Source: Natronorubrum halophilum (GTDB lineage Archaea > Halobacteriota > Halobacteria > Halobacteriales > Natrialbaceae). Taken from it: a DNA stretch of 64,000 nucleotides. Positions 100-61,764 of this stretch are shown in pieces. Every line of letters begins with the position of its first letter. The first letter of the stretch is position 1. The notes beneath the pieces are model-generated. The model did no database searches, was not told the DNA's origin, and saw only the letters and a program-made list of their open reading frames with translations. The stretch covers positions 124,001 to 188,000 of the forward strand of contig NZ_QQTY01000001.1 in assembly GCF_003670115.1 (NCBI RefSeq), written 5' to 3'. The translations under genes were made by a program, and so were the position numbers.

Positions 100-861
100 T
101 CAGGAGTAGTTGTGCTCGAGTTCGATCACGTTCGCCGCGCCGAGGACCGACTCCGGCAGATCTTCGTAGAAGCGTTCGTCACCCACGCGGTGAACGGGAC
201 AGGCGACGCTGATCGACGCGATGCTCCGGTCCGCGTCGTCGGTGATCGGTGCCGCGATACACCGCAATCCGTTGAGACGCTCCTCCCGGTCGATCGCGTA
301 GCGCTGGTCCCGGACCTCCTCGAGTTCCGCGTGAAACTCCTCCCGGTCGGTGATCGTCTGGCTGGTAAGCGCCGGTAATCCGTGTTCGGTGAGGATCTCG
401 TCGACCTCCTCGCGGGGACGAAAACCGAGGATCGCCTTTCCGAGCCCCGTACAGTGGAGTCGGACCCGTTTTCCCTCGTGCGTATCGAGTTCGACCGCGT
501 TCTCCCCTTTCGCCTGGTAGAGGTAGATCCCCATCCCGTTCTTTTCGACGAGGAGGTTCACCAGTTCGCCGGTCTCGTCGGCGAGTTCGTCGGCCTGTGA
601 CTGGGCGGCGTCGTAGATCGGCGTCCGGTTTCGCGCGTACGCGCCCAGTCCGAGAAACGAGAGCCCGATGTGGTACTCGTCGCCGTCTTTGTCGACGTAC
701 TCGTGATTCGCGAGCGTCATCAGGTGGTTGTGCACCGCGCTCTTCCCGATATCGACTCGTTCGGCGATCTCCGAGACGCCGGCCCCGTCGAGTTCCTGGA
801 TTACCTCGAGGATCTCGAACGTTCTGCCGACGGTTCGGACCGGGTGTTTTGGTTCTGTCAT
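100..861 (-). CDS. IclR family transcriptional regulator (XacR-like)
   Basis: A 253-residue IclR-type DNA-binding regulator. An N-terminal winged helix-turn-helix spans roughly residues 8-70 (SEIAERVDIGKSAVHNHL is the recognition part) and a C-terminal effector-binding domain covers about 75-250, with the family's GLGKAILG and GLRCIAAP motifs. Length is normal for the family. On the opposite strand to the catabolic genes that start at 2911 but in line with the FAH and ThuA genes, it is the obvious candidate regulator; the Haloferax xylose/arabinose locus uses an IclR regulator (XacR) in the same role. A TATA-like box (TTTATATG) lies about 27 bp before the ATG, so the mRNA is probably leaderless. 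The effector is not visible in the sequence. It is a paralogue of the IclR protein at 59458-60225. Confidence 0.93.
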   Translation of the reverse strand: MTEPKHPVRTVGRTFEILEVIQELDGAGVSEIAERVDIGKSAVHNHLMTLANHEYVDKDGDEYHIGLSFLGLGAYARNRTPIYDAAQSQADELADETGELVNLLVEKNGMGIYLYQAKGENAVELDTHEGKRVRLHCTGLGKAILGFRPREEVDEILTEHGLPALTSQTITDREEFHAELEEVRDQRYAIDREERLNGLRCIAAPITDDADRSIASISVACPVHRVGDERFYEDLPESVLGAANVIELEHNYS

Positions 862-2910: not shown

Positions 2911-4146
2911 ATGCCGAACTACCGGACGTTACGCGATCCGAACGCAGAGTATACGATGCGTGATCTCTCATCGGAAACGATGCAGCTGACCGCGGACCGC
3001 GGGCCGCGCGATGTCGAGATCACCGACGTACAGACCACGATGGTCGACGGAAACTACCCGTGGATCCTCGTCCGCGTCTACACGGACGCCGGACTCGTCG
3101 GAACCGGTGAATCCTACTGGGGCGGCGGTGACGACGCGATCATCGAGCGGATGGCGCCGTTCCTCGTCGGCGAGAACCCCCTCGATATCGACCGGCTGTA
3201 CGAACATCTCATCCAGAAGATGTCCGGCGAAGGCTCGATCTCCGGAAAGGTCATCTCGGCCATCTCGGGCATCGAGATCGCTCTCCACGACGTGGCGGGT
3301 AAGATCCTCGACGTCCCGGCCTACCAGCTGGTCGGCGGGAAGTACCGCGACGACGTCCGCATCTACTGCGACCTTCACACCGAAGACGAGGCCAATCCCG
3401 TCGCCTGTGCCGACGAAGGCGAACGCGTCGTCGAGGAGCTCGGATACGACGCCATCAAGTTCGACCTCGACGTTCCCTCGGGCCACGAGAAAGACCGTGC
3501 AAACCGCCACCTGCGCGGCCCCGAGATCGACCACAAGGTCGACATCGTCCGCGAGGTCACCGAACGCGTCGGCGACAGAGCCGACGTCGCCTTCGACTGC
3601 CACTGGTCGTTCTCCGCGGGCTCCGCGAAGCGCCTCGCGCGCGAACTCGAGGAGTACGACGTCTGGTGGCTCGAGGACCCCGTGCCGCCGGAGAACCACG
3701 ACGTCCAGCGGGAGGTCACCCAGAGTACGACGACGCCGATCACCGTCGGCGAGAACGTCTACCGAACCCACGGACAGCGCCGGCTGCTCGAGGAGCAGGC
3801 GATCGACATCATCGCGCCGGACCTGCCGCGCGTCGGCGGGATGCGCGAAACGCGAAAGATTGCCCAGCTCGCGGATCTCTACTACGTGCCGGTCGCGATG
3901 CACAACGTCTCCTCGCCGATCGGGACGATGGCGTCGGCACAGGTCGCGGCGGCGATCCCGAACTCGCTGGCCGTCGAGTACCACTCCTACGAACTCGGCT
4001 GGTGGGAGGACCTCGTCGAAGAGGACGACCTCATCGAGAACGGGCGCATGGAAGTTCCCGAGAAGCCCGGACTCGGACTCACGCTCGATCTCGACGCGGT
4101 AGCGGAGCATATGGTCGACGGCGAAGAGCTGTTCGACGAGGCATAA
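2911..4146 (+). CDS. Enolase-superfamily (mandelate racemase/muconate lactonizing) sugar-acid dehydratase, XacD-like
   Basis: A 411-residue enolase-superfamily enzyme with an N-terminal capping domain (about 35-160) and a C-terminal TIM barrel. Predicted Mg2+ ligands are Asp229 (FDCHW), Glu255 (WWLEDP) and Glu281 (VGENV); Lys183 (AIKFDLD) and His331 (AMHN) are the expected acid/base residues. This set fits dehydration of an aldonic acid to its 2-keto-3-deoxy product. Haloarchaeal relatives include xylonate dehydratase (XacD) and gluconate dehydratase. The product would feed the FAH-fold enzyme at 1080-1952. A TATA-like GATATACC lies about 27 bp before the ATG. Which aldonate is used cannot be read from the sequence. 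Confidence 0.9.
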   Translation: MPNYRTLRDPNAEYTMRDLSSETMQLTADRGPRDVEITDVQTTMVDGNYPWILVRVYTDAGLVGTGESYWGGGDDAIIERMAPFLVGENPLDIDRLYEHLIQKMSGEGSISGKVISAISGIEIALHDVAGKILDVPAYQLVGGKYRDDVRIYCDLHTEDEANPVACADEGERVVEELGYDAIKFDLDVPSGHEKDRANRHLRGPEIDHKVDIVREVTERVGDRADVAFDCHWSFSAGSAKRLARELEEYDVWWLEDPVPPENHDVQREVTQSTTTPITVGENVYRTHGQRRLLEEQAIDIIAPDLPRVGGMRETRKIAQLADLYYVPVAMHNVSSPIGTMASAQVAAAIPNSLAVEYHSYELGWWEDLVEEDDLIENGRMEVPEKPGLGLTLDLDAVAEHMVDGEELFDEA

Positions 4147-4808
4147 GCTCCGTCGAACTCGCGGAGCGGGTTGTTCGCTGAACGGGATCCCGTTGAGGCC
4201 GGTGCTGCGGTGGTTCGTGCTGTGTGGACGGACCGAACTGCACTGGCCGGTTCACTTTTCGACCAGAGAGGGTCTGGATACGATGTGTCGAATGCCGATT
4301 AGCCGCCGCGCCGAAACGCGGACACGTCCGCCTGGAACCCGACGAACGCCTCGAACACCCAGTCGCGCGTTGTACCCGGCTGCACATCGTTCTCGCCGGT
4401 CGTTGATTCGCGTCCGACACATACACGGCGATGTTGACTGCTCAGGCCGGACAGCCCCACTCCGGTGAGAGTCTCGTGCCGTCCCCGCTTGTGGTCAGTT
4501 CGTGTTTGTACTGAAAGAAAGGAGGGGATGGAGCACGAAAGAATAGTCTCTCTTAGAGAAGGATGTTCATTTACTCAGAACACCAGATGGGACACACACA
4601 ACATGGAATGGTAACTACTACCAACCTCGGCGGGGTAGGGTTCACCGTTACCCCGTCGGTCACTAGCGTTCTCAGTGGTTCCGTTCCGGCCGTTACGGGG
4701 AGTGTCCGGAACCCGCTACACTCCTCGAACAGCACTCGGAGCGTCGCCATCTGGCCGATGTGTACAGTGCACTCGCGTACATCGCGCCTCTCGTCACGGC
4801 CGCCAATG

Positions 4809-4832
4809 TATTACATTCGTATGAATGTAATA
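4809..4832. promoter_or_regulatory. Palindromic site: 10-bp arms, 4-bp spacer
   Basis: TATTACATTC (4809-4818) and its exact complement GAATGTAATA (4823-4832) flank GTAT. The inner 22 bp (4810-4831) match a second site at 59164-59185 (read on the minus strand) at 18 of 22 positions. It lies about 230 bp upstream of the Gfo/Idh start, too far for simple promoter occlusion, but it could serve as an operator or upstream activator site. The binding protein is unknown; an IclR regulator is one candidate. Confidence 0.6.
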
Positions 4833-4945: not shown

Positions 4946-4962
4946 GTTCTGTGTTACAGAAC
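4946..4962. promoter_or_regulatory. Inverted repeat GTTCTGT-3-ACAGAAC upstream of Gfo/Idh gene
   Basis: Perfect 7-bp arms around a 3-bp spacer, about 75 bp upstream of the TATA-like box of the gene at 5064. A looser related sequence (GTTCTG, AA, ACAG) overlaps the region just upstream of the TATA box of the IclR gene (895-905). Operator-like by position and symmetry only. Confidence 0.4.
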
Positions 4963-5063: not shown

Positions 5064-6143
5064 ATGGACACACTTTCGGTGATTGATCGGTTCGCGGAGC
5101 GCGATTGGGAGACGACAGCGGACGGCACCGTCCGATTCGCACTGGTCGGCCTCGGCTGGTGGACCGTCGACGTCGTCGTGCCCGCAATCGAACAGTCGTC
5201 ACACTGTGAGACGAGCGTCCTCGTCAGTTCCTCCCAGGAGAAAGCGGACCGACTGGCGGAGCGCCACGGCGTCGAACGGGGGCTCACCTACGACGATTTC
5301 CACGACGGCGACGCGACCGACGCCTACGACGCCGTCTACGTCGGCACGCCCAACGCCTTCCACCTCGAGTACGTCGAAACCGCCGCCGAACTGGGGAAGG
5401 CGGTGCTCTGTGAGAAGCCGCTCGAGGCCACGGTCGAGCGCGCCGAGCGGCTCGTCGAGGCCGCCGAGGCTGCCGACATTCCGTTGATGACGGCCTACCG
5501 AATGCACACCGAACCCGCCGTTCGACGGGCGAAAGAACTCATCGACGACGGCTTCATCGGCGAGCCGACCCACGTCTACGGCAACAACACCCAGCCCATC
5601 CTCGAGATGAATCCGGATCCCGACCAGTGGCGGCTCGATTCCGACGTCACCGGCTACGGCACCTCCGTGATGGATCTGGGTATCTACCCGATCAACACCG
5701 CTCGCTTCCTCCTCGAGCGCGACCCCGTGCGAGCGAGTGCGCGGATGGACTCGTCTCACGACGCGTTCGACGACGTTCCCGACCAGAACGCGACGGTCAC
5801 GCTCACGCTCGAGGGCGATCTGCCGCTGGTCTGTACGACCAGCCAGCACGCCCAGCAGGATACCCAACTCAAAATCATCGGCACCGAAGGGACGATCGAA
5901 CTCGCGCCCGCGTTCCACGGCGAGGCGACGTTGCACCTCTCGTCCGGTAGCCTTCGGGCGACGGTCGAAGACACGGAGTACACCGCGGTCGAGGAGATGC
6001 GCGAGGAGTTCGATTACTTCGCCGACCGGGTGCTCGGCGGCGAACCGATCCTCCCCGACGGCCGCCACGGACTCGAGGACATGCGAACGATTCGGGCGAT
6101 ACACGAGGCCGCCGAGCGCGACGAACCCGTCGACATCGAATAG
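5064..6143 (+). CDS. Gfo/Idh/MocA family sugar dehydrogenase (D-xylose 1-dehydrogenase-like, XacA-like)
   Basis: A 359-residue NAD(P)-dependent oxidoreductase of the Gfo/Idh/MocA family. The N-terminal Rossmann domain carries ALVGLGWW at about 30-37, then the DAVYVGTPN strand and the signature LCEKPLE; the C-terminal alpha/beta domain contains the substrate loop region with GYGTSVMDLGIYPIN. Length and start match the haloarchaeal xylose 1-dehydrogenases (XacA/Gfo6), which oxidise aldopentoses to lactones. The ATG at 5064 is preferred over the earlier in-frame ATG at 4926 because a TATA-like box sits 25-30 bp upstream and conservation begins there. Together with the dehydratases at 1080 and 2911 it can supply the oxidation step. 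No lactonase is visible in the window. Confidence 0.9.
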   Translation: MDTLSVIDRFAERDWETTADGTVRFALVGLGWWTVDVVVPAIEQSSHCETSVLVSSSQEKADRLAERHGVERGLTYDDFHDGDATDAYDAVYVGTPNAFHLEYVETAAELGKAVLCEKPLEATVERAERLVEAAEAADIPLMTAYRMHTEPAVRRAKELIDDGFIGEPTHVYGNNTQPILEMNPDPDQWRLDSDVTGYGTSVMDLGIYPINTARFLLERDPVRASARMDSSHDAFDDVPDQNATVTLTLEGDLPLVCTTSQHAQQDTQLKIIGTEGTIELAPAFHGEATLHLSSGSLRATVEDTEYTAVEEMREEFDYFADRVLGGEPILPDGRHGLEDMRTIRAIHEAAERDEPVDIE

Positions 6144-8898: not shown

Positions 8899-9327
8899 AT
8901 GGTCGTCGTAACAGCAATCGACGGAGAAAACGGGTCGGAACGCGTTCTCAGAGAAGGCTGGAAGCTGGCGTCGCAGTTCGACGAACCGCTTCACGTCATT
9001 CTCGTCTACGAGGAATCGGATCACAAGTACCTCATTAACAAGTCACTCAACATCGACGATGAGGTGTCGCCGGAGCAGGCGGAGGAACTCGCCGCCACGG
9101 TTATCGAGCAGGTTTCCGAGGGCGTGACCGACGAATACGAACCGGTCGGGCGCACCGGGAACCCGCCGGAGGAGATCATCTCCCACGCCAACGACGTCGA
9201 TGCGAGCTACATCGTCGTCGGCGGTCGCTCTCGATCACCGGTCGGAAAGGCGCTGTTCGGAAGCGTCACCCAGTCGGTACTACTCGACGCCGACTGTCCC
9301 GTCGTCGCCGTCATGGCCGAACAATAA
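8899..9327 (+). CDS. Universal stress protein, UspA family
   Basis: A single UspA domain of 142 residues. The N-terminal VVVTAIDGENGS strand-loop and the C-terminal GGRSRSPVGKALFGSVTQSVLLDADCPVVAV segment fit the ATP-binding G-2x-G-9x-G-S/T signature. Cytoplasmic; binds adenine nucleotides in characterised relatives, with roles in stress adaptation. It is a stand-alone gene with its own TATA-like box, between the permease and the M24-like gene. Confidence 0.93.
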   Translation: MVVVTAIDGENGSERVLREGWKLASQFDEPLHVILVYEESDHKYLINKSLNIDDEVSPEQAEELAATVIEQVSEGVTDEYEPVGRTGNPPEEIISHANDVDASYIVVGGRSRSPVGKALFGSVTQSVLLDADCPVVAVMAEQ

Positions 9328-14471: not shown

Positions 14472-14868
14472 CGCCGCCCACCCGTCTCCACCGACGGTGT
14501 GATCGCGTGTTCGTGCTCGCGGCTCGCTTCATTCAGTCGTCGAACGAGGCGGGCCAGACGGTCAGCCGACTCGACCGGATCGTACGCCTCGAGTTACGAC
14601 GAATCACCCGTGAACTCCCGTCGATGTCCCGAGCCCTCCTCTTTACACGAATACACCTGTAACGCACTCTCCGCCGTCTATCGACCTGTTCGACGGCGCT
14701 TCGGCGATTTGGTCCGCAAATTACGCCGACGGTGTCCTCCCTGATACGTCTCCGGTAGCCCTCGACGCGATATCGTCGTGTCGAAAACGACCGATGGTCA
14801 CGAACTCGAGCCCGAGCGGTACCGCGATCGTGGGTAACGTATAAGGACGTTTCACCCAACGTCATCGT
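14472..14868. other. 397-bp intergenic region
   Basis: No gene supported. A short symmetric CACCG-A-CGGTG lies just past the MoaD-like stop (near 14488-14500). A TATA-like GTATAAGG about 30 bp before 14869 serves the lyase gene. The remainder shows no recognisable element. Confidence 0.5.
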
Positions 14869-57605: not shown

Positions 57606-58148
57606 GTTGGCGATCGACGGTCGACGATGGAGTCGGAGTCGCGTGTACGCTCGAGCAGTCTCGACGCGGTCGTGGGGCCATCTCCGCGAACGGTCGCCCA
57701 GTTGTGCCTCACACACGAACACAACCACTACACTCTGGCGATAATGTATAGATTCATATATAGACCGTTATAATATGTTTGCCAACGATAATTTTTCGCT
57801 GGTAACGGAGTGCTGTGCAGATGTTTGGCCACTCATACCCAATTACACCAGATAATTACTCTCACACCGGTCGATCCGAGATTCTCGGATCGATTTCGAC
57901 TGTTGAACCCACATACTGACATTCATACGACTCTAATCGCCAGATTCACCTTCACAGATTTTCGTAGGACGTTCCCGGATGGTTTAGTCCGGGTCCTGCT
58001 ATTTTAGCAACCATGTATCTTTTCCGATGATTCTATCGAGCATGGCCCGACCAGTTTCATCCTCGCGCCGAACGGTACCCACTCGAGCCGTGTAGCGACG
58101 TTGCCGGTCGGAAGAACATACATATACTGTCACCCCATCGCACATCGT
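57606..58148. other. 543-bp AT-rich intergenic region with a 23-bp palindrome
   Basis: No gene supported. About 57730-57860 is very AT-rich. A perfect palindrome lies at 57871-57893. A CATACATATACTG box about 25 bp before 58149 serves the amidohydrolase. Confidence 0.55.
57871..57893. promoter_or_regulatory. Perfect 23-bp palindrome (11-bp arms, 1-bp centre)
   Basis: TCGATCCGAGA, T, TCTCGGATCGA. It lies 266 bp after the helicase stop and 255 bp before the amidohydrolase start. It could be an operator or a strong RNA hairpin; no T-run follows directly, which speaks against a simple terminator. Confidence 0.5.
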
Positions 58149-59018
58149 ATGGGTTTGCCCACAGTGCTCGACGAGTCGCGCGCAATCGACACGCACGCTC
58201 ACCAGCCGACGAGCGAGTTTCTCCACGATGCGGGCGGACAGATGATGAAAGACGCGGCCGATCGGTTCGGTGCCGACCTCGAGACGGATACGTACGAGAA
58301 CATGATCGAGGAGTATCGGGACGCCGGCGTCGGTCGCGCCGTCTTGCTCGGGTGGGATGCGGAAACGAACACGGGAAATCCGCCCGTTCCGAACGACTAC
58401 GTCGCCGAGGTTCGCGACGAGTACGCCGACTTCTTCGTCGGCTTCGGCTCCGTCGATCCGCTCAAAGACGACTGCGTCGAGGAGGCGGTCCGCTGCGTCG
58501 AGGGTCTGGACCTCTCCGGATTCAAGTTCCAGCAGATCGCCCAGGGGTTCGATCCGTCCGATCCCGAACACGAGGACCTCTGGGCGACGATCGAAGACCT
58601 CGGGGTCCCCGTCGTCTTCCACGGCGGAAACTCCACCCTGGGTGCGTGTTCGCCGGGTGGACGCGGATTGAAAATCAAGTACGGGAATCCGATGCTGATC
58701 GACGACGTTGCGGCCGACCACCCCGACCTACAGATTCTCATCGCCCATCCCGCCTACCCCTGGGAGAAAGAACAGCTCGCGATCTGCCAGCAGAAGGGCA
58801 ACGTCTACATGGACCTCTCCGGGTGGATGCCGAGGTACATCGACGATCAGGTGCTCCACTACGCGAAATCTCTGCTCTCGGACAAGGTCATGTTCGGGAC
58901 CGACTACCCGATGCTCGAGCCGGAGCCGTGGCTCGAGCAGTTCGCCGAACTCGACTTCGACGAATCGGTCCAGCGCAAGATCCTCTGGGAGAACGCCGAG
59001 GAGTTCCTCGGATTGTAA
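58149..59018 (+). CDS. Amidohydrolase family protein (Amidohydro_2)
   Basis: A 289-residue TIM-barrel metal hydrolase or decarboxylase. DTHAH carries the HxH ligands, VVFHGGNS and ILIAHPAYPW the further histidines, VMFGTDYPM the Asp. The family includes aminocarboxymuconate-semialdehyde and resorcylate decarboxylases as well as lactonases. The ATG at 58149 follows a CATATACTG box by about 25 bp. It is the leftmost gene of the right-hand island; a role in breaking down a ring or lactone compound is inferred. Confidence 0.88.
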   Translation: MGLPTVLDESRAIDTHAHQPTSEFLHDAGGQMMKDAADRFGADLETDTYENMIEEYRDAGVGRAVLLGWDAETNTGNPPVPNDYVAEVRDEYADFFVGFGSVDPLKDDCVEEAVRCVEGLDLSGFKFQQIAQGFDPSDPEHEDLWATIEDLGVPVVFHGGNSTLGACSPGGRGLKIKYGNPMLIDDVAADHPDLQILIAHPAYPWEKEQLAICQQKGNVYMDLSGWMPRYIDDQVLHYAKSLLSDKVMFGTDYPMLEPEPWLEQFAELDFDESVQRKILWENAEEFLGL

Positions 59019-59457
59019 CCCTCGTCGACCGCCCGGATCCGATCGAACGGACGCCTGTACGCCTGTGTTCAAACTATGGGAACAGCAATTGATCGTGTAC
59101 GCGACACGGCCTCGTCGGAGTCTGTACCGATTGTTCCGAGGATTCTCCGGTAGCGCGAACGGGATTACAACCATACGGCTGTAATTATCTTCTCGACCGA
59201 ACACCACCTGTTCCACGCCGATCGCACACCATGTACAGGTGACTCGAGGGAGGAACCGTCCCGCTCGCGCCGAATGTCCGGCGCTCGAGCGGGGAGTTCG
59301 GCTGTGACGACGGGGAATTACGGCACCGTTCGAGTAGCTCGAACAGCCTGACGGCGTGATCAGCAGTCACGAGATCATCACAGTTGACAACGCCCGTTCT
59401 CCGGAGAGTACACGGGTATGACGAACGCGGACCGAGCGCCTCGAGGTCGCGCCCGGG
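59019..59457. other. 439-bp region between convergent genes with a palindrome
   Basis: No gene supported. It lies between the 3' ends of the amidohydrolase and IclR genes but holds a 22-bp near-perfect palindrome at 59164-59185, an odd place for an operator. The rest shows nothing recognisable. Confidence 0.5.
59164..59185. promoter_or_regulatory. 22-bp near-perfect palindrome, second copy of the 4810-4831 site
   Basis: ATTACA at 59164-59169 and TGTAAT at 59180-59185; nine of eleven base pairs are symmetric. Read on the minus strand it agrees with 4810-4831 at 18 of 22 positions: ATTACA, two variable bases, CGTATG, two variable bases, TGTAAT. Confidence 0.55.
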
Positions 59458-60225
59458 TTAGGAGTGAGCGAGGTTGATCTCCACTTCGTTCGTCGCACCG
59501 AGCAGGAGATCGGGGAGTTCGTCGGTCAGCAACTCGCCGCGCAGCCGATTCGCCGGGCCGGCGACACTGATCGCCCCGATCGCGGTGCCCGACTCGTCTC
59601 TGATCGGCGCGCCGACGGCGTGGACGCCGGTAACCGATTCCTCGTGGTTGAACGCGTATCCCCGATCGCGGATCGTCTCGAGGTGGTCGCGGAGTTCGTC
59701 GCGATCGGTGATCGTCCGTTCGGTCTGTGCGGTCAGCCCGGAGTCGTCCAGAATCGTCTCGATCCGTTCGTCGGGGAGGTGCGCGAGAATCGCCTTGCCC
59801 GCGGCGAACTGGTGGAGGTGCGTCCGCTGACCGATCCGGGCGTGGGTTTTCACGGAGTGTCGTCCTTCGGCACCGTAGACGTGGACGCCGATTCCCTGCT
59901 CTTCGATCACGCACCAGACCTTCTCGTCGGTTTCGGCGGCGAGTTCGTCCACTTTCGGTCTGGCGACGTCCAGCAGCCGATGGCGATTGCGTACGTGAAT
60001 CCCGTAATCCAGGAACCACATGCTGATGCGGTAGGTGTCCCCCTCTCGAACGAGCAGTCCCCGCGACTCGAGGGTCTTCACGTGGCGGTGAACCGTACTC
60101 TTCGCGAGTCCGAGTTCCGCGGCGATCTCGGTAATTCCCGCACCGTCGGCGCGTTTGACGACGTCGACGATGTCGAACGCCGTTTCGACGGTTTCGACCG
60201 GCCTGTGTCGCGAGTCGGCTGTCAT
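59458..60225 (-). CDS. IclR family transcriptional regulator
   Basis: A 255-residue IclR protein: winged helix (about 10-70; ITEIAAELGLAKSTVHRHVKTLESRGL) and effector domain with AAGKAILAHLPDER and GVHAVGAPIRDESG. It is similar in order and motifs to the regulator at 100-861. The start at ATG 60225 is preferred (TATA-like CTTTTTGA about 28 bp upstream) over ATG 60252. It is the local candidate regulator of the right-hand island. Confidence 0.93.
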   Translation of the reverse strand: MTADSRHRPVETVETAFDIVDVVKRADGAGITEIAAELGLAKSTVHRHVKTLESRGLLVREGDTYRISMWFLDYGIHVRNRHRLLDVARPKVDELAAETDEKVWCVIEEQGIGVHVYGAEGRHSVKTHARIGQRTHLHQFAAGKAILAHLPDERIETILDDSGLTAQTERTITDRDELRDHLETIRDRGYAFNHEESVTGVHAVGAPIRDESGTAIGAISVAGPANRLRGELLTDELPDLLLGATNEVEINLAHS

Positions 60226-60341
60226 GTGTTCACACTCGAGAAGCGCCCTCAAAAAGCTGTTCCCGTTACTCGAACGACCGACGGTTTCGTTCGCATCGTT
60301 CGAACCCCGTCAGCGTCGGTGCGCTGTCACGGTCGATCCGG

Positions 60342-60941
60342 CTACGAGGTCTGGGAGTAGGTTTCGACCCACTCCTGTAGCGTGATCCCCATCGTCGCCT
60401 GCGTGATGGCGTTCGACGAGGCGGAGTTCGCGCTCTTGACGAGTTCGGCCTCGAGCGTCCGTTTGGGAACTTCCCCGAGGAAATGCGGGATCGCCCGCTG
60501 GACGGCCAGCGGACAGCCGACCTCGTGGGCGAGCGCGTAGCCGGAGATGGAGTGGGGGATCTCCTCGCTGACGTAGCGCGGGTCGGGGTCGGCGAGCGCG
60601 TCGTCGTCCACGAAGTCGGGGTACTCGTAGCACTTGCCCACGTCGTGGAGGAGGCACGCGGCCGCGATCGTATCGGTGTCCGGGTCGGCACCGTGAAATT
60701 CCCGTTGTTCGCGGGCCGACTCGAGCGCGATGCGGGTGACGCCGCGGACGTGCTCGACGTTCGTGACCTCGTGGATGTTCCAGGCGTAGGGAACGTCCTC
60801 GACGTCCCGCCAGCCGCCGCGTGTTAGTCCGAGGGTCCACGCCTCGACGACGCGGTCGCGCAGGTCGTCGTCCTCGATGCGCTCGAGTTCCGGAAAGGCG
60901 TCGCGGACCTGGCCGTTGAAATCGATATCTGGCTCCGACAT
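60342..60941 (-). CDS. HD-domain phosphohydrolase-like protein
   Basis: A 199-residue HD-domain protein. HEVTNVEHVRGVTRIAL gives the first His, CLLHDVGKCYEYPDF is the HD motif (about 97-110), and HSISGYALAHEVG a further His helix. Characterised relatives include phosphohydrolases and cyanamide hydratase. In operon with the EthD protein (5-bp gap). The substrate is unknown. Confidence 0.85.
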   Translation of the reverse strand: MSEPDIDFNGQVRDAFPELERIEDDDLRDRVVEAWTLGLTRGGWRDVEDVPYAWNIHEVTNVEHVRGVTRIALESAREQREFHGADPDTDTIAAACLLHDVGKCYEYPDFVDDDALADPDPRYVSEEIPHSISGYALAHEVGCPLAVQRAIPHFLGEVPKRTLEAELVKSANSASSNAITQATMGITLQEWVETYSQTS

Positions 60942-60946
60942 GGCGA

Positions 60947-61663
60947 TCAGCGCTCGTCCGTGACGAGGCGTTCCCGGCCGATGAGTCGCGGCCGTTCGTC
61001 GATCGCGAGGAAGTTATCCACGTCCTCGCGGGCCTCCTTCGCCTTGCCCTTCTCGGGATCGTAGTCGCGGGAGCCTTCGCTACCGAGCGCGTCGTACAGC
61101 TTCTCGAGGTCCTCGAAGTACAGTTCGGCGACACCGTCGAACTCCGCGTGTTCGGGGTCGGTCGGCAGGATCGTGTTGTACTTTACGACGCCCTCGATCT
61201 CGCGGGCGATCGGCGTGTGATTGGTCTGCCAGTGGTCGACGAACTCCTCGTGACTCATCCCCTCCTTTCGGACGAGAAACACCGAGTGTTTGTACAGGCC
61301 GTCGGTGTCGCCGTCGACGTCGTCCTTTTGAACGATCTCCTCGCCGATGAATCGGGGTCGCTCCTCGATCGCGAGGAAGTTATCCACGTCCTCGCGGGCC
61401 TCCTTCGCTTTCCCCTTCTCGGGGTCGTAGTCGCGGGAGCCTTCACTACCGAGCGCGTCGTGGAGCGCCTCGAGGTCCTCGAAGTAGAGTTCGGCCAGGC
61501 CGTCGAACTCGGCGTGGTCAGGTTCCGTCGGCAACACCTGCTGGTAGCGAACCACCCCCTCGATCTCGCGGGCGATCGGGGTGTGATTCTCGTGCCAGTA
61601 GTCCACGAACTCGTCGTGGGACAGCCCGTCCTGACGAACCAGTAACGCGACGTGTTTGTACAT
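60947..61663 (-). CDS. Tandem-duplicated EthD-like (dimeric alpha/beta barrel) protein
   Basis: A 238-residue protein of two EthD-type ferredoxin-fold domains, residues 1-121 and 123-238, offset by exactly 122 residues (366 bp). Each starts YKH, has SHEEFVDHW or SHDEFVDYW with NHTPIAREIEGVV, and FDG.AELYFEDLE. Segment ALGSEGSRDYDPEKGKAKEAREDVDNFLAI is the same in both. The domains normally dimerise; here the dimer is fused. Start ATG 61663 follows an ATTTATG box by 28 bp. Confidence 0.87.
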   Translation of the reverse strand: MYKHVALLVRQDGLSHDEFVDYWHENHTPIAREIEGVVRYQQVLPTEPDHAEFDGLAELYFEDLEALHDALGSEGSRDYDPEKGKAKEAREDVDNFLAIEERPRFIGEEIVQKDDVDGDTDGLYKHSVFLVRKEGMSHEEFVDHWQTNHTPIAREIEGVVKYNTILPTDPEHAEFDGVAELYFEDLEKLYDALGSEGSRDYDPEKGKAKEAREDVDNFLAIDERPRLIGRERLVTDER

Positions 61664-61707
61664 CACCGGCGTGTTTTCCGTACAGCGGCATAAATGGTGA
61701 GGCCCGT

Positions 61708-61720
61708 GTGCAGTGTGCAC
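61708..61720. promoter_or_regulatory. Symmetric site GTGCA-3-TGCAC upstream of EthD gene
   Basis: GTGCA (61708-61712), GTG, TGCAC (61716-61720), just upstream of the TATA-like box of the tandem EthD gene. A possible IclR operator by position only. Confidence 0.3.
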
Positions 61721-61764
61721 GATATCGGGAGTCGGATGGGGCACTCGAGTGCGGAATCACCGCC

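Follow-up and report, generated by a model that had tools for sequence, protein, structure and literature searches.

Genetic organization of the analyzed region

The window (the whole 64,000-nucleotide stretch of DNA that was analyzed) contains two catabolic islands, each with its own IclR-family regulator gene, as well as several copies of a palindrome whose arms read TTACA and TGTAA. The features of island 1 and the region downstream of it are as follows (strand given for oriented features):

100..861, minus strand, IclR1, regulator of island 1 (Pfam IclR_C, 1e-40)
2911..4146, plus strand, enolase-superfamily sugar-acid dehydratase of island 1 (Pfam MR_MLE)
4565..4581, weaker copy GTTCATTTACTCAGAAC of the IclR-type repeat, on the other side of site 1 (2 mismatches)
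4810..4831, plus strand, TTACA palindrome site 1, ATTACATTCGTATGAATGTAAT (sequence match)
4946..4962, perfect inverted repeat GTTCTGTGTTACAGAAC, IclR-type, between site 1 and gfo6
5064..6143, plus strand, gfo6, sugar (D-xylose type) 1-dehydrogenase (NCBIfam NF041392, 593 bits against a cut-off of 350)
14642..14663, third TTACA palindrome, TTTACACGAATACACCTGTAAC, approximately 207 bp upstream of an HpcH/HpaI aldolase gene

The features of island 2 are:

57916..57937, weak, degenerate TTACA-like site, intergenic, upstream of the amidohydrolase gene (2–3 mismatches, status uncertain)
58101..59018, plus strand, amidohydrolase, convergent to iclR2 (Pfam Amidohydro_2, 2e-48)
59067..59083, predicted IclR2-type operator copy GTTCAAACTATGGGAAC, on the amidohydrolase side of site 2
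59164..59185, TTACA palindrome site 2, ATTACAGCCGTATGGTTGTAAT read on the minus strand, in a convergent intergenic region and kept in orthologues
59328..59344, predicted IclR2-type operator copy GTTCGAGCTACTCGAAC, on the iclR2 side of site 2
59458..60225, minus strand, iclR2, IclR-family regulator, last gene of an apparent operon (Pfam IclR_C, 5e-37)
60259..60275, predicted IclR2-type operator GTTCGAGTAACGGGAAC, 34–50 bp upstream of the iclR2 start
60289..60305, predicted tandem IclR2-type operator GTTCGAACGATGCGAAC, 64–80 bp upstream of the iclR2 start

Sites 1 and 2 were found where the preliminary description of this DNA had placed them; they share 18 of 22 bases (4 differ), and the consensus derived from the pair was correct. 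The same description had considered a chance origin unlikely, and indeed this consensus, with up to 3 mismatches allowed, was never found in 100 dinucleotide shuffles of the window (mean 0.00). The likeness of the two regulators (IclR1 and IclR2 are 40% identical) and the position of site 2 between the 3′ ends of convergent genes (the amidohydrolase gene ends at 59018 and iclR2 at 59458) were also confirmed. The third site, with its exact core at 14643–14662, and the weak site at 57916–57937 had been overlooked. The aldolase gene downstream of the third site is followed by an acyl-CoA dehydrogenase gene, and a 929-aa minus-strand ORF that runs across this site, for which Pfam gave no match, is probably not a real gene.

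In island 1, the best NCBIfam match of the dehydratase is galactonate dehydratase, which scores below the cut-off. Site 1 lies approximately 230 bp upstream of gfo6, its nearest downstream gene, and about 3.9 kb from IclR1. The perfect repeat GTTCTGTGTTACAGAAC is a candidate operator of the island's IclR protein, as judged from its sequence; since approximately two chance matches with 2 mismatches are expected per window, the GTTCATTTACTCAGAAC copy is only suggestive. Most of the close gfo6 orthologues carry degenerate TTACA matches approximately 194–370 bp upstream, with TGTTCT...AGAACA-like elements located nearer the gene.

Copy number and distribution of the palindrome

The genome-wide search that had been proposed as a check (pattern TTACAN4TAN4TGTAA, with up to 1 mismatch) revealed 52 sites in the 4.67-Mb genome (8 contigs), compared to 0 for the reversed control pattern. 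About 32 of the 52 are located on one 708-kb contig and the remainder are clustered. Alignment of the sites gave the consensus WTTACAn3RTAYn3TGTAAW, with flanks that are not conserved. With a stricter pattern, TTACAN3GTAYN3TGTAA, matches were obtained in 148 of 292 haloarchaeal genomes, and the control gave almost none. Given these counts, and the conservation of the site in orthologues described below, the probability that the palindrome is a chance similarity or an artefact is practically negligible. Searches of the openly accessible literature yielded no description of the motif.

None of the 52 sites lies within a called gene, and the same is true of the 55 sites of two other genomes (G276 and G181). 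Genes around the sites were predicted with a simple codon-based caller, which was checked against the annotated plasmids of Haloterrigena turkmenica (G181); the deposited annotation of this strain agrees with the intergenic placement.

The neighbours of the sites, both in this genome and in the annotated H. turkmenica plasmids, are overwhelmingly catabolic: they include sugar-acid dehydratases, sugar dehydrogenases, permeases, ABC and TRAP transporters, glycoside hydrolases, kinases and acyl-CoA enzymes. The motif thus has many conserved copies beside catabolic units in many species, the distribution expected for the motif of a global catabolic regulon. Among the 29 IclR genes of the genome, 19 have a site within 1 kb, versus approximately 4.5 expected, a figure that includes a generous correction for intergenic enrichment; only about one-third to one-half of the sites adjoin an iclR gene. 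The proposal that the element is shared by catabolic islands containing IclR genes is therefore upheld.

Genes of universal stress proteins recur beside TTACA sites or in the same islands (loci L024, L032 and L045, H. turkmenica pHTUR02 near 270893, and 8899–9327 of the window). Two of the few sites in a non-catabolic setting are G000:C1:826039, 52 bp before an RdfA-like gene, and G000:C4:676837, 368 bp before the gene of an Lrp/AsnC-type regulator; the latter protein might be a candidate binder of the palindrome.

Location of the sites relative to genes and promoters

The sites of three genomes were classified by the orientation of the adjacent genes: 31 are located between convergent, 21 between divergent and 51 between tandem genes, which does not differ from random placement (P = 0.38). 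In this genome the nearest start codon is approximately 50 bp from a site, most are 100 to more than 1000 bp away, and some sites begin just 2–18 bp past a stop codon. No TATA element was found at a fixed distance from the motif, and no AT peak was detected beside it. Since the sites are indifferent to orientation, far from starts and without a fixed TATA element, they do not resemble classical promoter-proximal operators, for which a preference for upstream positions, starts or TATA elements is expected; this assignment was rejected. Scattering without relation to catabolic promoters had been named beforehand as an outcome that would speak against a common operator, and the result answers to it by half: the sites are tied to the islands, but not to the promoters within them.

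The possibility that the palindrome is a recombination or cassette-border site was likewise rejected, because the spacers vary between orthologues while the position is kept.

Conservation of site 2 and a second palindrome at the iclR2 locus

The iclR2 gene and its surroundings were compared with orthologous loci of approximately 20 other haloarchaea. Of 18 Natrialbaceae orthologues, 16 keep the palindrome at the position of site 2 (3′ of iclR2), while its three-base spacers and all of the surrounding sequence change. Judged by this pattern, we regard site 2 in the convergent region as a genuine footprint. The amidohydrolase gene is a conserved neighbour at most of the orthologous loci. At the deepest-branching loci (L102–L104) the TTACA match is at best degenerate or displaced. 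Immediately before iclR2 are genes encoding HD-domain and EthD-domain proteins (60342–61744, minus strand), whose synteny is maintained in most orthologues.

A 17-bp palindrome of a different kind, GTTCG-N7-CGAAC, flanks site 2 on both sides and is also present in tandem at the iclR2 promoter; 4 of its 7 matches in the whole genome are at this locus. Nearly all Natrialbaceae orthologues (17 of 18, or very nearly so) have the promoter copy at the same distance; a strict filter did not find it in L087 and L089. In two Halobiforma orthologues the region downstream of iclR2 has been reduced to approximately 80 bp, and the TTACA palindrome and the downstream GTTCG-N7-CGAAC copies have been lost together; both still possess the promoter copy. 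The simplest reading of these comparisons is that GTTCG-N7-CGAAC is the predicted operator of IclR2 itself, and that the TTACA palindrome belongs to something else.

The convergent position of site 2 also bears on the idea that small or antisense RNAs missing from the annotation are transcribed from promoters under the control of the palindrome; at site 2 such an RNA would be antisense to iclR2 or to the amidohydrolase gene. About 30% of the sites are located between convergent genes, where no promoter is annotated, and TTTAWW boxes are enriched approximately 3-fold in the 40 bp adjoining the motif relative to more distant sequence, although this concerns only about 10 of 214 flanks. The lack of a fixed-distance TATA element and of an AT peak argues against such promoters, and the orthologues of site 2 conserve recognizably only the palindromes, with no transcript or ORF between them. 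Since neither an Rfam match nor a convincing small ORF was found at site 2, the small-RNA reading was dropped for this site, and as a general explanation of the palindrome we consider it improbable.

Predicted operators of IclR genes

The preliminary description went on to propose that the IclR proteins of the islands bind to a common operator; in its wider form, the palindrome would be bound directly by many IclR paralogs with a common specificity. The frequency of sites within 1 kb of IclR genes (19 of 29, versus approximately 4.5) agrees with this proposal, as do the H. turkmenica plasmids, where about half of the sites adjoin an IclR gene, and the several sites that begin 1–20 bp past an iclR stop codon. 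The promoters of the IclR genes, however, point elsewhere. Those of the iclR2 orthologues keep GTTCG-N7-CGAAC and have no TTACA palindrome. The orthologues of another IclR gene (L028, C1:879271) have TCCGG-N5-CCGGA in common, positioned immediately before the TATA box, and only 5–6 close orthologues have the TTACA palindrome 3′ of the gene. Among the 29 IclR genes of this genome, none has a TTACA site in its core promoter, where varied other palindromes are found.

Further points against IclR binding come from comparisons between paralogs and genera. The IclR paralogs adjoining the sites do not form a clade and are scattered over the IclR tree, in which no group of site-adjacent proteins with a shared recognition helix was seen. 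Some genera rich in IclR genes (g30, g29 and g7) lack the motif altogether. Moreover, the TTACA consensus fits neither of the published groups of IclR motifs, i.e. GKTYCRYW3-4RYGRAMC (group 1, including TGTYCRYW3RYGRACA) and TGRAACAN1-2TGTTYCA (PMC8222616). The part of the earlier proposal concerning a common IclR-bound operator is consequently not favoured; we consider direct binding by many paralogs unlikely, and on these sequence comparisons IclR proteins are probably not the binders of the palindrome.

In many of the L028 orthologues (L165–L175) TCCGG-N5-CCGGA is repeated within approximately 30 bp after the iclR stop codon; operator copies at both ends of the gene may be a common arrangement among IclR genes. 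Palindromes of 15 bases are enriched 1.5–1.9-fold within 200 bp of the TTACA sites. Automatic pairing of the palindromes of IclR promoters with those near TTACA sites yielded one clear further case only (L029), and a k-mer search beside all of the sites identified no additional common motif, the flanking operators being island-specific.

TTACA palindromes in Haloferax loci

The upstream regions of xacE were located with the published H. volcanii primer at the xacE start. The five genomes with a recognizable xacE promoter are relatives of H. volcanii belonging to one genus (3 mismatches to the primer; their assignment to Haloferax is based on the primer match). Each of the five has a perfect TTACA palindrome in the range −504 to −564, flanked on both sides by GTTCT...GAAC-type repeats. 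In H. volcanii itself, the first 250 bp upstream of xacE give constitutive expression, whereas with 750 bp expression is repressed when xylose is absent and strongly induced when it is present (PMC10448506). The distal segment between −250 and −750, to which xylose control of this promoter (Pxyl) was thus assigned, is needed for repression and for full induction; no motif was named in it, the palindrome was not mentioned, and XacR was proposed as a candidate regulator (PMC10448506). The palindrome of the relatives falls inside the segment shown to hold the regulation, which contains other elements as well.

The gac-like clusters of H. alexandrinus and H. lucentense have the palindrome approximately 0.2 kb 3′ of the iclR gene, and similar GTT...AAC repeats were recognized by eye on the promoter side and near the site. 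Overall, the composite arrangement of a TTACA palindrome with IclR-type repeats was found at four loci, and at two of these, iclR2 and xacE, it is strongly supported by orthologues. The spacing between its elements varies from approximately 30 to 150 bp.

A role in nucleoid organization, insulation or segregation, in place of transcription factor binding, would account for the indifference to orientation, the strictly intergenic placement and the clustering in certain replicon regions. Nevertheless, the strong association of the sites with iclR genes and catabolic operons, the composite arrangement with IclR operators and the published regulatory effect of the segment expected to contain the palindrome (PMC10448506) make this explanation very unlikely.

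Nature of the binder

All 38 sites of this genome with exact outer parts have the centre RTAY, compared to 13 of 25 in a second genome (G112; P = 2e-6), where some of the variant-centre sites may be chance matches. The centre is uniform within the genome and differs between genomes, indicating that specificity drifts per genome and not per island. Indirectly, the pattern favours one trans-acting binder per genome; the binders may also be several members of a regulator family that all recognize the same sequence. In G112 and G040 (genus g40, taken to be Haloferax) the centre is relaxed to TA only, unlike in G211 and G113 of the same genus, which suggests a recent change of binder specificity in the former two.

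Two haloarchaeal regulators with palindromic sites throughout the genome were considered as binders and rejected. CsmR recognizes a different motif, TATCA-N4-TGATA, located beside the TATA box, while the published sites of CdrS are promoter-proximal (41–110 bp upstream of transcription start sites).

Proposed function of the palindrome

On balance, the conserved, orientation-neutral palindrome, copied throughout the genome and associated with IclR genes, is probably the operator of one putative global catabolic regulator (factor X), placed in distal modules together with IclR operators. Such a module would occupy a long intergenic region, which may be upstream or downstream of a gene, and the start codon would be hundreds of bases away. 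The IclR protein of the island, responding to the substrate, and factor X, responding to a general carbon or growth signal, would bind the module together, and the module would exert its effect on a neighbouring promoter over a distance, probably through a DNA loop to the IclR operators of that promoter. At site 2, the module 3′ of iclR2 would consist of an operator at 59328, the X site at 59164 and an operator at 59067, and could loop to the tandem operators of the iclR2 promoter (60259–60305), approximately 1.1 kb away; for the action of site 2, looping would be the most economical explanation. That there is a single binder and that looping takes place are points that we infer, as are the signal of the binder and the direction of control.

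A more general formulation can be advanced tentatively: the 22-bp operator of a clade-wide regulator may act as a distal, orientation-independent enhancer or silencer for catabolic genes under IclR control, including from positions downstream of genes or between convergent ones. This would amount to a layer of long-range regulation of which little has been described in archaea.

If the factor X model is correct, a large catabolic regulon extending across a whole archaeal class would have been defined from sequence alone, and an explanation would be offered for the published behaviour of the P250 and P750 versions of the H. volcanii xylose promoter. A genetic model could then also be used to test for a global carbon regulator in haloarchaea, and for the control of archaeal genes by elements that lie hundreds of bases away or downstream of them.

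Comparison with known systems

An experimental counterpart is Pxyl/xacEA of H. volcanii (PMC10448506); in relatives of this species the TTACA palindrome and IclR-type repeats occupy the matching distal segment. The haloarchaeal systems of sugar catabolism activated by the IclR proteins XacR, GacR, RhcR and MscR also have IclR genes within catabolic islands, with gfo6 and an enolase-superfamily dehydratase as here; no TTACA-like operator was found described for them in the searchable literature, and in the islands studied here the TTACA palindrome is separate from the IclR-type operators. Haloarchaeal IclR proteins are activators (PMC11519228).

The flanking palindromes, in contrast to the TTACA consensus, resemble bacterial group-1 IclR operators (PMC8222616): GTTCG-N7-CGAAC, GTTCTG-N5-CAGAAC and TCCGG-N5-CCGGA have similar half-sites or a similar layout, with inverted TGTTC/GTTC half-sites at the iclR promoter and, likewise, tandem copies, although the spacing of the island palindromes is somewhat different.

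CsmR and CdrS are comparable in having palindromic sites genome-wide, and differ in motif or position as noted above. The likeness to the bacterial regulators CRP and CcpA is one of function only. Each of these has one palindromic operator that is used across many catabolic units and combined with local regulators. The sequence, the binder and the location differ, in that the TTACA sites are not promoter-proximal and are often downstream of genes. The palindrome would be of a known kind, that of the palindromic operators of global catabolic regulators; its placement at a distance, free of orientation and combined with a second regulator of local range, represents a variant of this kind.
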